DNA from: Bdellovibrio sp.
GTDB taxonomy: Bacteria > Bdellovibrionota > Bacteriovoracia > Bacteriovoracales > Bacteriovoracaceae
Direction of reading: 5' to 3'
Length of the DNA stretch: 46,217 nt
Assembly: GCA_022729855.1 (NCBI GenBank)
Contig: DZBG01000008.1
Coordinates: 1 to 46,217, forward strand
The notes under the pieces are model-generated. The model ran no database searches. It was not told the DNA's origin and saw nothing but the letters and a program-made list of their open reading frames with translations. Each line of letters starts with the position of its first letter. Position 1 is the first letter of the stretch. The position numbers and the translations under genes were made by a program. Below are positions 19,670 to 37,658 of the stretch, one piece after another.

Positions 19670-21328
19670 TTAAAGTGATGGAAACTTAATTTTAGTCTCA
19701 GGGCTTTTCGCAATATTTAAAGCAATATCGTATCCAGCATCAGCGTGACGAACAATTCCCATTCCTGAATCTGAATTCAGAACACGTGATAAACGAATAT
19801 CCATTTCAGGAGTTCCATCGCACACAATGACCATCCCAGAATGCTGAGAATAACCCATTCCAACTCCACCACCATGGTGAAGTGAAATCCAGCTCGCCCC
19901 ATTATTAATATTGATCATGGCATTGAGAAGTGGCCAGTCAGAGACGGCATCACTGCCATCTTTCATGCTTTCTGTTTCACGGTTGGGACTTGCTACCGAA
20001 CCACAGTCTAAGTGATCGCGTCCAATCACAATGGGAGCTTTCACTTTTTTCTCACGAACAAGTTGATTAAATAATAACGCCGCTTTTTCACGGTCACCAT
20101 ATTTCAGCCAACAGATTCTTGAAGGAAGACCTTGAAAGGCAATCATCTCTTGAGCTTTGTTAAGCCAATTAATCATAGATTTATTTTCAGGAAATAATTT
20201 TTTAAGCGCTTCATCAGTCACACGAATATCTTCTGGATCTCCAGAAAGGGCCACCCATCTAAAAGGTCCAGAGCCTTCACAAAAGAGAGGGCGAATATAA
20301 GCAGGAACAAATCCAGGGAAATCAAAAGCGTTAGTCACATCCACTTTAAGGGCCCCTGCGCGCAGATTATTTCCGTAATCAAAAACAAATGAGCCACGTT
20401 TTTGAAACTCAAGCATGGCCTTCACATGATCACCCATCGTTAAATATGAGAGTTCTGTGTATTTAACAGGATCAGATTTTTTAAGCTCCATGGCCACTTC
20501 AAAGCTCATGCCTTGAGGAACATAACCATTGAGTGGATCGTGAGCGGAAGTTTGATCAGTCACTAGATCTGGAACAATATTTTTATCTAAAACAAATTTA
20601 AAGAATTCAGAAGCGTTTCCAACGACACCGATTGAGATAGCTTTCCCTTCCGCTTTCGCCTCAAGAGACATCTTAAGTGCCTCTTCAAAGCTATTGGCGA
20701 GTACATCTAAGTATTTTGTTTTCAGACGTTTCTCAATACGAGTGATATCTACATCACAACAAAGACAAACACCTTCGGCCATTTTTACAGCAAGAGGCTG
20801 AGCTCCGCCCATTCCACCAATACCACCAGTTAAAACGAGTTTACCTTTAAGCGTAGAACCAGCACCCCAGTGTTTGCGTGCAGCACTCATAAATGTTTCA
20901 TAAGTTCCTTGGATAATTCCTTGAGAACCAATATAGATCCATGATCCCGCAGTCATCTGCCCGTACATCATCAGGCCTTCATCTTTTAATTTATTAAAAT
21001 GATTCCAGTTGGCCCAATGAGGAACTAGATTTGAGTTGGCAATAAGAACACGTGGGCCTTGAGGATTTGAAGGAAAAACTGCAACGGGTTTTCCTGATTG
21101 AACAATCATCGTCTCATCATTTTCTAAATTTTGAAGAGTATGAATAAGATCAGCGAGTGCTTTATGATTTCTTGCCGCTTGGCCATTACCGCCGTAAACC
21201 ACAAGATTATCACGGTCTTCAGCAACATCTGGGTGCAGGTTATTTAAAAGGCAGCGAAGAGCGGCTTCTTGATGCCAGCCTTTACAAGTTAATTTATCAC
21301 CAGTTGGTGGAAGAGGGATTTGAGTCAT
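19670..21328 (-). CDS. hutU: Urocanate hydratase
   Basis: Second step of histidine degradation: converts urocanate to imidazolone propionate using tightly bound NAD+ as a cofactor. The protein is 552 residues, as usual. NAD-binding [11 protein letters not shown] near residue 48, [11 protein letters not shown] near 167 and the signature [16 protein letters not shown] near 438 are present. A strong ribosome site (AAGGAGCTC) lies in front of the ATG; the stop codon of the upstream ATPase gene runs into this ribosome site. Between it and hutH, which would normally be directly upstream in the operon, sit the AAA ATPase and the divergent membrane gene. Confidence 0.98.
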
Positions 21329-21338
21329 AATGAGCTCC

Positions 21339-22520
21339 TTAAAATAATTCTCTCGGCTTCTCTGAAGATTTTCTATTTATATACTGATCTATTAGAGGAA
21401 TAGTGTAGTCATAACCTGATGCTTTTTTTAGTAAAAGACCCTTTTGCACTAATCTGAATATTGCTTGTCTTATTGCAACCTGGCTTTTAGCATCTTCTGG
21501 ATTTTTTTCATTATATTTTTGAAGTAAATCTTTAGGCAGAAATGGTTTTTCTAATTCTAATGTGATTTCGAAATATTTTCTATCAGATTCACTTAAGGTT
21601 TCAAATCTTGAGTCATAAAATTTAGTGTCAAGTTCTTTAATAATTTTGCTTTGGCATGCTTCAAGGTCCAGCAATGTAAATTCTGTTTTCTTGCTTTGAA
21701 TATGAATGTATTCATCAATTAGACGTGATGAAATGTATTGAATAAAGTAGGGGTACCCAGAGCTTAGTTCTGCAATTTTGCTAATTAAGTCATTTGAAAA
21801 AGTTAAATTACTTGTTGAACTTTCAAGAGTTTTAGCAATTAATTCTTCGGCTTCTTGTAAATTTAAATGATCAAGCTTTTCATAAAAACCAAAAGCTCTT
21901 TCTATGTTTGGTTTAGATTCTTGGAGGGATGGAAGCAGTGTTGGTAATCCTGCAAACGCAAAAAAAAATGGCAGTCCATGTGCCTGAATATTTTGAACTA
22001 AGCTAAGCAGGGTAGATCTTGGATATTCTTCAATTGCCTTATTATCAACAATGAATTGAGCCTCATCAAAACCTATCATTAATCCTTTAAAACCTTTGTT
22101 TTGAATTTCTTTTATACAAAATTCAATCACTTTAGTTGCTTTGGTTTCAATTGAGCCTATTGTCTCCCTTATAATTTGGTAAAATATTTCATTATAATTT
22201 TGTTCTCTGCTTACTTTTTCTTGCATAACAATTTGAAGGTTTTCTAAAATAAAAGTAAGAAGATCTTTTGTTCTTCGGCCCTTATTTTCAAAAACGATAA
22301 CGACTAATGATATCCATTGATTATTCTCAAGGTCTGTTTTTAGCTTGTTGAGTAAAACGCTTTTACCTACGCCACGTAAGCCAGTAACAATATAGTTCTT
22401 TTTTCTAAAATCTTCATCTACGGTACTGATACGTTTAATGTTATCCAGTTCAGTACTTCTTCCTGCTATATAAGGGGGGATACGACCTGAATCATCTGCT
22501 ATAAATGGATTGATGTGCAT
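21339..22520 (-). CDS. AAA/archaeal-type ATPase with C-terminal winged-helix-like region
   Basis: 393 residues. Walker A is GLRGVGKS at 47-54; Walker B ends with Asp152-Glu153 in GFDEAQ. A sensor-type strand ([10 protein letters not shown]) follows at about 190, and the GYPYFIQ segment at about 257 is typical of ORC/Cdc6-like, STAND-like and archaeal ATPases. Residues about 305-390 look like a winged-helix region ending [17 protein letters not shown]. It resembles the AAA proteins often annotated simply as 'ATP-binding protein' (opening PPxLAGRxxEL). The gene is visibly AT-richer than the adjoining hut genes. It lies 10 bp before hutU and reads in its direction, so it probably now drives hutU-hutI from its own promoter. 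The function is unknown; a role in a defence or stress module is inference. Confidence 0.85.
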
Positions 22521-22556
22521 GCAATTCCTCTGTTTTCGATGGGTTATAGGAGAAAG

Positions 22557-22701
22557 GTTACCGTTATATGATAACGCTTCGTAACGTTACTGTCAATTGG
22601 TAACGTTACTTTTTGTTACTGTAATACGGTAACGTTACGAAGGGTTACTAATATTTAGTAACGTTAGAAGGGGTTACTAATATTCAGTAACGTACTGGAA
22701 A
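22557..22701. repeat. Five 29-bp iterons, each a GTTAC-N9-GTAAC dyad
   Basis: Dyads of 19 bp start at 22557, 22586, 22615, 22644 and 22673, an exact 29-bp period. The arms are GTTAC and GTAAC (the first unit has ATAAC). The 9-bp centres vary but are mostly AT-rich. After each dyad most units add another GTTA and about five variable bases. The array fills the intergenic region between the divergent ATPase and membrane genes and overlaps a near-consensus promoter. Operators of this kind suggest cooperative binding of a dimeric protein along the helix. The absence of unrelated spacers and the short dyads exclude CRISPR. Confidence 0.9.
22568..22596 (-). promoter_or_regulatory. Sigma-70-type promoter for the AAA ATPase gene
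   Basis: On the minus strand a perfect TTGACA (22591-22596) is followed by a 17-bp spacer and TATCAT (22568-22573). The -35 box lies in the centre of iteron 2 and the -10 box in iteron 1, so a protein bound to these dyads would block polymerase. Transcription should begin near 22561, about 40 bases before the ATG at 22520, which has the ribosome site AGAGGAA. Confidence 0.75.
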
Positions 22702-22740
22702 TACAGTCAAGAAAAAGTGAAAGATTGCCGAAAGAAGAGA

Positions 22741-23373
22741 ATGAACTGTACAGAAACGCTAATTATATACCACCTCCGTGAAGTTTCATTATTATTAATG
22801 ATTATAATTGCAGGATTACTGGGGGGGATTGCCAGAAATCTTTTTGAAAACAAAAAGCCGCTAGAGCCCTTAAACATAGTTCTTGGCTTGGTTGCAACCT
22901 TAATAACCCCCTTGTTTCTCAAAACTATTTCAAGCGACTTACTTAAAACTTACTTAAATTATGGTGTGGATTTTGTCTCGAATGAAGCATTTTTAATATT
23001 TTCAATTATGATTTTATCATCGTTCTTTGCGCAAAATTTCATTCAATCTGTTAGAGATAAAGTGCTTAGGGATGATATTAAAAATCTTGAAGACAAAGTA
23101 GATGAAAACTCTGATCAGTTTTTGAAAAAAAGTTACCTAGACTTGAATGAAAATTCAAAACAACTACTCAAAAATATTATTTTAACCAAAAAGAACTCTT
23201 CTTTTACAAAAGAGGAATTGGATGAAGTTAGTTCTTTAGTAGGAGAAGAGTTTAACCTCTCCTATCAAGAACTGTTGGAAACAGGAATTTTAAAAAAGAA
23301 TCAAAACAAGTATCAAATTTCACAATTTAGTGAAATAAGTGAATTAGATAAAGTATTTGGCCCAAATTATTAG
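22741..23373 (+). CDS. Three-TM membrane protein with winged-helix-like tail (YEATS-associated-helix-like)
   Basis: 210 residues from the ATG at 22741, which has a purine-rich site AAGAAGAGA before it; a GTG at 22717 would add 8 residues. Hydrophobic segments lie at about 16-32, 46-62 and 84-98. The motifs AGLLGGIARN, GLVATLITPLFLKTISS and FFAQNFIQSVRDKVL recall, from memory, proteins annotated as YEATS-associated helix-containing, placed by comparative genomics in predicted conflict systems. Residues about 100-130 are a coiled coil, and 139-200 look like a small winged helix. It is divergent from the ATPase across the iteron array, and its stop overlaps the hutH stop by four bases (TTAG). 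The family link needs a profile search. Confidence 0.75.
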   Translation: MNCTETLIIYHLREVSLLLMIIIAGLLGGIARNLFENKKPLEPLNIVLGLVATLITPLFLKTISSDLLKTYLNYGVDFVSNEAFLIFSIMILSSFFAQNFIQSVRDKVLRDDIKNLEDKVDENSDQFLKKSYLDLNENSKQLLKNIILTKKNSSFTKEELDEVSSLVGEEFNLSYQELLETGILKKNQNKYQISQFSEISELDKVFGPNY

Positions 23374-24908
23374 AGTAATTCGCCGAGAATTGATTCAACT
23401 TCATGCAAAATTTCATTTGATTCAACTAAACGCGCGAGATTTTCCATATCTTTATAAAAAATTCTATCTTGATCTATTGGGGCCACATGTTTTCTGACAA
23501 GAGCGTGGACTTTTTCAAGAGCAGGAGAAGTTTTAAGCGGTCTTAAAAACTCAAGGCCTTGAGTATTACAAAGAAGCTCAATCGCTAAACAGTGCTGAAC
23601 ATTTTTAATCACTTCATGAAGCTTGCGTCCAGAGGTCACTCCCATCGACACGTGATCTTCTTTATCAGTAGATGTTGGAATTGAATCTACACTGGCAGGA
23701 TGGCATAGGTATTTATTCTCTGAGGCCAGTGCCGCCATAGTTACGTGAGCAATCATGAGTCCTGAATTCAGTCCTGAATCTTTAACTAAAAATGCCGGAA
23801 GATCTGAGAAATGTGGATTCATCATTTTCTCCACTCTACGTTCTGCAATATTACAAATTTCACTCATGCCCATGGCCAGATAATCCATACTAAGAGCAAG
23901 TGCTTCCCCGTGGAAGTTACCACCTGAGATCACGTCCCCTGTTTCAAAGAAGACAAGTGGATTATCAGTTACTGAGTTAAGCTCAATATTCATCACTTCT
24001 TCAGTATGTTTTAGAGTTTGTCTACAAGCTCCGTGAACTTGCGGAATACAGCGAAGTGAATAGGGGTCCTGAACTTTTCCATCTTCAGGATGAGAATTAA
24101 TAATTTCTGAACCATTAATAATTTTTAAAAGATTTTCTGAAACAGCAAGCTGTCCTGGTTGTGGTTTTAATTGAGCAATTCGAATATCAAAGGCAGAGGC
24201 TGTTCCACGAACAGCATCCAACGTTAAGCAGCTCACAATATCAGCAAGCTTCATTAGGCGCGTACATTCAGTCACGGCAAGTGATCCGAGGGCCAGCATT
24301 ACAGATGTACCATTAATGAGGGCCAAACCATCTTTAGGTCCAAGCTTAGCGGGAGTTTTTTTAATTTGGTGAATGGCAAAATCTGCGCGAACAATTTTTC
24401 CTTGGTATTCAACTTCGCCTTCCCCAATCAGGGCCAAGGCCACATGAGAGAGAGGAGCTAAATCGCCAGAGGCACCCACTGATCCTTTTTCAGGAATAAC
24501 AGGAGTGATGCCATAATTAATAAAATCAAAAAGTAGCTCAATGATACTTGGAGTAACACCAGAGAATCCTTGAATTAAACAATTTGCACGGGCAATCATG
24601 ATGGCACGTGAGACATCACGAGAGAACGGAGCACCAACTCCAGTACAATGAGATCTAATAAGATTATATTGAAGCTGCTCAAGATCCTCATTGGGGATTT
24701 GCATACTAGCAAGGGCACCAAATCCAGTATTGATTCCGTAGACAGCTTTACCTTTTTTAACGATATCAAGAACAGTTTGACGGGCCTTAATCATTCGCTC
24801 CATTGAAGCAGGGGCAATTGAAACTTGAACCTCGCCAACTTTAGCACGTGCAATATGAGTTAATTCATCAATAGTAAGATTGGTTCCAGTGAGTACGTAG
24901 TTTTTCAT
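23370..24908 (-). CDS. hutH: Histidine ammonia-lyase
   Basis: First step of histidine degradation: eliminates ammonia from L-histidine to give urocanate. The Ala146-Ser147-Gly148 triad in GSVGASGDLAPLSH cyclises to the MIO electrophile. YGINTGFG (58-65), GNFHGEAL, and SVDSIPTSTDKEDHVSMG are typical of HAL. The 512-residue length is normal. It begins 6 bp after the rpe stop and is preceded by AGGAT, so it belongs to the long minus-strand operon. The stop overlaps the stop of the convergent membrane gene, and its partner hutU lies beyond the inserted module. Confidence 0.98.
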   Translation of the reverse strand: MKNYVLTGTNLTIDELTHIARAKVGEVQVSIAPASMERMIKARQTVLDIVKKGKAVYGINTGFGALASMQIPNEDLEQLQYNLIRSHCTGVGAPFSRDVSRAIMIARANCLIQGFSGVTPSIIELLFDFINYGITPVIPEKGSVGASGDLAPLSHVALALIGEGEVEYQGKIVRADFAIHQIKKTPAKLGPKDGLALINGTSVMLALGSLAVTECTRLMKLADIVSCLTLDAVRGTASAFDIRIAQLKPQPGQLAVSENLLKIINGSEIINSHPEDGKVQDPYSLRCIPQVHGACRQTLKHTEEVMNIELNSVTDNPLVFFETGDVISGGNFHGEALALSMDYLAMGMSEICNIAERRVEKMMNPHFSDLPAFLVKDSGLNSGLMIAHVTMAALASENKYLCHPASVDSIPTSTDKEDHVSMGVTSGRKLHEVIKNVQHCLAIELLCNTQGLEFLRPLKTSPALEKVHALVRKHVAPIDQDRIFYKDMENLARLVESNEILHEVESILGELL

Positions 24909-37583: not shown

Positions 37584-37658
37584 AGGGGTGTCGACAAGTG
37601 GTAAGTCAGCAGATTTTGATTCTGCTATGCGCAGGTTCGAACCCTGCCACCCCTACCA
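37584..37658 (+). tRNA. tRNA-Gln(UUG), with encoded CCA
   Basis: A full cloverleaf folds: acceptor AGGGGTG with CACCCCT, discriminator A and genomic CCA (37656-37658), D stem GAC/GTC, anticodon stem GCAGA/TCTGC with loop TTTTGAT and anticodon TTG at 37616-37618, five-base variable loop, and T stem GCAGG/CCTGC with loop TTCGAAC. All stems are perfect. It lies 8 bases ahead of the prs ribosome site. Confidence 0.98.

Follow-up and report, generated by a model that had tools for sequence, protein, structure and literature searches.

The closest described counterparts of the ATPase gene found in the window (the whole 46,217-nt stretch of DNA analysed here, from Bdellovibrio sp. contig DZBG01000008.1) are the phrog_6841 genes, solitary 'ATP-binding protein' genes known from plasmids and prophages. 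These share with it full-length homology, size, solitary occurrence and promoter-embedded palindromes, as well as the motifs NP[FY]..G..PP..AGR, GLRGVGK[ST], DEAQ, GLP and GYPYFIQ. Compared with them, the window ATPase has diverged, with about 32% as the highest identity observed; an internal stretch of about 25-30 aa is missing from it, and its gene is accompanied by an enlarged palindrome array with spacing 19/29 rather than 18/28. The archaeal STAND-type ATPases (ATPase_2; SSO1545, 2fna, and PABY2304, 2qen) resemble it in AAA+ core, lid, winged helix and motifs, with fold matches at E 4.5e-10 and 5.3e-10, respectively; in contrast to them, it lies below the Pfam ATPase_2 cut-off, and identity is about 14-17%. 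The motif set of STAND / ATPase_2 proteins comprises hhGRxxE, Walker A, Walker B and GxP. Orc1/Cdc6 initiators (2qby, 1w5t, 2v1u) have the AAA+ plus winged-helix fold predicted for the window ATPase and, as proposed here, a comparable repeat-binding logic; however, the window gene has no origin or replicon context, being located inside a hut operon with its sites overlapping a promoter. The second protein of the locus corresponds to the YLATT (PF20303) / SLATT membrane proteins, with a score above the YLATT cut-off and three transmembrane (TM) segments; unlike in those systems, its gene is divergent from an ATPase gene. In Pfam, PF20303 bears the name YEATS-Like-Associating Three TM. Burroughs and Aravind reportedly predicted in 2020 that YLATT-type proteins are immune effectors.

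The features of the locus are as follows.

19670-21328, minus strand: hutU, intact, directly downstream of the ATPase gene.
21339-22520, minus strand: solitary-type AAA+ ATPase with a C-terminal winged helix, 393 aa, phrog_6841 family (ORF, profile match, AF2 model).
21363-21593, minus strand: winged-helix region at the C-terminal end of the ATPase (about residues 310-386), presumed to read DNA (model and low-score profiles).
22557-22696, no strand: putative operator array of five 19-bp GTTAC-N9-GTAAC dyads with 29-nt spacing (pattern, shuffles and family comparison).
22568-22596, minus strand: candidate sigma-70-like promoter of the ATPase gene, TTGACA-17-TATCAT, with an operator palindrome in the spacer (consensus match only).
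22741-23373, plus strand: YLATT three-TM protein (PF20303), ATG start at 22741, alternative GTG start at 22717.
22786-23100, plus strand: YLATT domain with three TM segments (PF20303 match; TM count 3).
23149-23319, plus strand: C-terminal winged-helix-like region of the YLATT protein (H-H-H-E-E pattern, low-confidence model).
23370-24908, minus strand: hutH, intact, its stop overlapping the YLATT stop.

A preliminary description of this DNA held that hutH and hutU, normally adjacent, are separated here by an AT-richer ATPase gene and a divergent three-TM gene, and the ORFs and base composition agree. The gap between hutH and hutU is about 2.03 kb of AT-rich DNA with the ATPase gene (minus strand), the palindrome array and the divergent three-TM gene (plus strand). 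GC content is 0.313 in the ATPase gene and 0.303 in the TM gene, against 0.409 in hutH, 0.415 in hutU and 0.402 in hutI, and the insert has the lowest GC among all 2-kb stretches of the window. The ORF coordinates also confirm the close fit that had been claimed at both ends: the ATPase ORF ends 10 bp ahead of hutU, with its TAA overlapping the hutU Shine-Dalgarno, and the three-TM ORF (end at 23373, plus strand) shares 4 bp with the stop end of hutH. We inspected 29 relatives from the same family for an uninterrupted junction, a comparison proposed in that description. hutH and hutU were directly adjacent in 24 of them, and in 13 junctions that were read the hutH stop lies 0-17 nt from where hutU starts; in the remaining five hutH was not seen beside hutU, and the insert was likewise absent. 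Thus none of the 29 relatives had the insert at this junction, or the arrangement found here. The histidine-breakdown (hut) operon is split by a 2.03-kb horizontally acquired segment, with hutH and hutU both unbroken. No target-site duplication was found at the insert (the longest shared word was 6 nt), and no integrase or transposase gene is encoded in it. Elsewhere in the window, a tRNA gene at 37584-37655 was the sole Rfam match.

Profile searches, also suggested beforehand for both proteins, assigned the ATPase to phrog_6841 and the membrane protein to YLATT. The phrog_6841 match had an E-value of 1.7e-23 for the window ATPase, and of down to 8e-119 for its relatives. Pfam gave only generic AAA matches: the protein scores just above the cut-off of AAA_22 (PF13401; 28.0 vs 27) and under that of ATPase_2 (PF01637; 29.4 bits vs 33.2). 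The profile libraries searched provided no function for the family. A single-protein scan of genome contigs with the ATPase gave no matches, and alignments were required to detect its relatives. These turned out to be numerous: we confirmed at least 573 in GTDB genomes, ranging from CPR and Planctomycetota to one archaeal metagenome-assembled genome (MAG), and found family loci in 32 IMG/VR contigs and matches in 94 plasmid records, 86 of which cover at least 80% of the protein. Full-length relatives have 22-32% identity to the window protein. By profile search, 24 further genomes of the phylum to which the window belongs have family members, and the eleven ATPases compared from these have at most 27% identity to that of the window. 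The relatives occur as single genes, whether on chromosomes, in prophages, on plasmids or in one integron-like cassette, and no Pfam family was common to more than two of 135 adjacent proteins. The ATPase is a member of a very large, widespread and functionally uncharacterised family of solitary mobile genes. We found no relevant literature on this ATPase type or on its operator sequence.

Several individual relatives deserve description. In a Vibrio plasmid (L008:3444-5720), the ATPase gene stands alone between two near-identical repeats of about 125 nt, which we take to resemble integron attC (VCR-like) sites; a phage abortive-infection protein is annotated in the same region. Four IMG/VR prophage contigs (L010, L011, L013 and L018) encode ATPases sharing one N-terminus; in the first three the gene directly precedes the terminase-like region, in the manner of a moron gene, and the neighbourhood in L018 differs. 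One profile match, in genome G144 (L175:1501-2676), has one in-frame TGA, which probably represents the stop codon at the end of the ORF.

The AlphaFold2 model of the window ATPase, built with 64 sequences, was of high quality (pLDDT 94.2, pTM 0.90), and predicts an AAA+ core, a helical lid and a C-terminal winged helix, an architecture that is both Orc1- and STAND-like. The top Foldseek ranks were Orc1/Cdc6, Orc2, SSO1545, PABY2304, RuvB and plant NLR NB-ARC, with TM scores of 0.4-0.6; among these best matches are the DNA-binding Orc1/Cdc6, SSO1545 and RuvB. Solved STAND-type folds matched over the full length (2fna, TM 0.54/0.59; 2qen, TM 0.57/0.63), and Orc1/Cdc6 2qby matched with an E-value of 2.9e-11 and TM 0.52/0.55. 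The complete STAND / ATPase_2 motif set is present in the protein, and the core residues are conserved in the 64-row alignment. In the model, the winged helix is formed by helices 311-322, 329-339 and 347-359 and strands 363-366 and 369-372, and this region had low-score profile matches to BlaI (1p6r) and to MCM winged helices.

Upstream of the ATPase gene, five GTTAC-N9-GTAAC dyads are found at 22557-22691, with a spacing of exactly 29 nt; 0.56 matches were expected in the window, and none of 100 shuffles reached five. Seen as palindromes, the same array contains GTAACGTTAC at 22581, 22600 and 22629, and a degenerate copy at 22687; GTAACGTTAG, at 22658, is a GTAACGTTAC-type palindrome with G as its last base. 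Four sites are exact matches to TAANNTTA, the family element described below. In a pattern search this was the single concentrated array of the 2.8-Mb genome, with only a few scattered one-mismatch matches elsewhere. The candidate promoter inside it matches 11 of the 12 positions of the sigma-70 consensus.

We compared the upstream regions of 89 non-redundant members of the ATPase family. Identical 5-mers recurred with period 18 in 48 of them (7.4 expected, z 19), with peaks also at 10, 28 and 36. What recurs is the palindrome TAANNTTA, most commonly as CTAAATTTAG: 56 of the 89 members have it upstream (8 expected) and 33 have two or more (0.7 expected), and 33 of 36 successive spacings are exactly 18 bp. 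Most copies begin 5 or 23 nt past TTGAC, and the typical location is immediately behind the -35 box. In the main subgroup (GAG[HQ]), at least one site was present in 53 of 60 members, against 6 of 228 control promoters (those of genes neighbouring family members), and at least two in 32 of 60, against none of the 228. This contrast alone is inflated, because the control promoters are less AT-rich than those of the family (AT content 0.43 vs 0.59); stronger evidence comes from the shuffles and from the spacing of exactly 18 bp, since neither depends on the AT content of the controls. Sites of the GTAACGTTAC type, with the same CG centre, recur in three relatives (L059, L060 and L088). The window array differs from the family in its spacing (19 and 29 vs 18 and 28) and is longer than in nearly all members; by sequence comparison, it is an enlarged variant of the family's putative promoter-embedded operator. 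A correlation between recognition helix and operator core was weak (Fisher p 0.015, post hoc and confounded by ancestry); their covariation is no more than suggestive. In distant subgroups, a test for a 26-nt ungapped palindrome was negative; one of them ('MDP') had a modest dyad signal, with gap-9 repeats in 41% vs 14% of controls.

These results bear on the nature of the repeats, which the preliminary description had called iterons and assigned to the insert. That they belong to the insert and are probably regulatory stands; the replication sense of the term does not. Were they replication iterons, the ATPase would be the initiator, of Orc1/Cdc6 type, of what was once a plasmid or another replicon, as might be thought from the regular repeats adjoining its gene and from its best fold match, an Orc1/Cdc6 bound to origin DNA. 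We rejected replication iterons because the repeats overlap a promoter and have the geometry of the promoter-embedded operators found family-wide. Moreover, the insert has no replication genes, and the ATPase relatives stand as lone genes, in chromosomes and prophages as well as in an integron-like cassette; we regard this reading as very improbable.

The membrane protein, on its profile score, is identified as a bona fide YLATT protein: the PF20303 match reached 54.6 bits against a gathering cut-off of 26.7 (E 1.1e-14), hydropathy counted three TM helices, and four strong YLATT proteins of other phyla can be aligned to the window protein. Folded alone, it gave a pLDDT of 48. Helical C-termini are also seen in short YLATT relatives (L134, L137). 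YLATT was found in one of 369 genomes of the phylum, namely the window's own, which argues for its horizontal gain. It was found neither in plasmids and phages (tblastn) nor in viral contigs (single-protein scan). The window's genome had no match to pYEATS (PF20305), although the controls were silent too in this assembly of 177 contigs. No relevant literature on YLATT or pYEATS was found. Two genomes encode a long YLATT protein (357-377 aa) at an equivalent position (L135:4893-10516 and L136:4763-10690), with the same two kinds of flanking genes, encoding a protein of about 240 aa and one of about 1195 aa; this suggests that these long forms are settled and vertically inherited.

Insertion, AT-richness and inclusion of the array bear out the preliminary description, but its "two-gene cassette", taken as a dedicated pair, is not borne out: YLATT was beside the ATPase relatives at none of about 112 loci, and no phrog_6841-type ATPase was found beside the good YLATT relatives. 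Of the latter, one is next to SLATT and ThsB-TIR genes, one next to MoxR-like and vWA genes, and two are among metabolic genes. At the first of these (L134:6060-9721), the YLATT gene lies amid SLATT_1/DUF4231 and two ThsB-TIR-like genes, a defence-island-like setting. A dedicated conflict system, in which the ATPase would sense an invader and YLATT would act as membrane-damaging effector, could draw on that neighbourhood, on the immune role predicted for YLATT-type proteins, and on the ATPase relatives found on plasmids, in prophages and in the integron-like cassette. However, the pairing is not conserved, there was no convincing match to a defence model (PADLOC best E 3e-4; NCBIfam DS41_1 22.6 bits vs 370), and a PADLOC scan around the ATPase family found defence genes among near and far neighbours alike, with no contrast. 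Such a system therefore seems unlikely to us. A conflict role for the ATPase is possible, and none of our tests supports it specifically.

The lack of conserved pairing would also be expected if the two genes were unrelated hitchhikers, the ATPase autoregulating through the array and YLATT having co-travelled or been acquired separately, with no functional link. Consistent with this, of eight genomes in which YLATT was matched, a single one also encodes the ATPase; there the two are on separate contigs, and the YLATT matches are weak. YLATT relatives also have no dyad array upstream. Yet the unusually long array extends toward YLATT, and both genes have a common intergenic region, a common insertion site and similarly low GC. 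We consider their independence doubtful, though a good deal more credible than a dedicated conflict system.

The explanation that we favour, with moderate confidence and on comparative sequence grounds, is a mobile autorepressing ATPase with its own operator, a co-acquired divergent YLATT gene, and an operator that also spans the YLATT promoter. The segment carrying ATPase, operator and YLATT gene was inserted between hutH and hutU. ATPase multimers would use their winged helices to bind the GTAACGTTAC palindromes, thereby blocking the -35/-10 region and holding the ATPase gene repressed; since this gene travels alone, the ATPase is the most economical, and the only constant, candidate binder. 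Binding to the array would probably control the divergent YLATT gene as well, given the unusual length of the array, which takes up the intergenic region between the two divergent genes. This control is plausible from position, the argument being positional because no clear YLATT promoter was found in the window and the regions upstream of YLATT relatives have no repeated dyads. On some cue, the ATPase would change its nucleotide state and let go of the DNA, and ATPase and YLATT levels would rise.

More tentatively, the family may represent an undescribed conflict or selfish class of pan-prokaryotic, mobile, one-gene, self-repressing Orc1/STAND-like ATPases, with an operator that in this genome was extended to drive a membrane effector. 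If so, the promoter palindromes spaced by 18 bp would be the recognition mark of an ATPase family that is scattered as a single gene across plasmids, prophages, an integron-like cassette, CPR and an archaeon, without an assigned function. With this conserved and predictable operator, a single protein and a short piece of DNA would suffice to study binding, repression and the cue for induction. Should the ATPase turn out to act in defence or as a selfish gene, a large class that is still uncharacterised would open up to testing at once.
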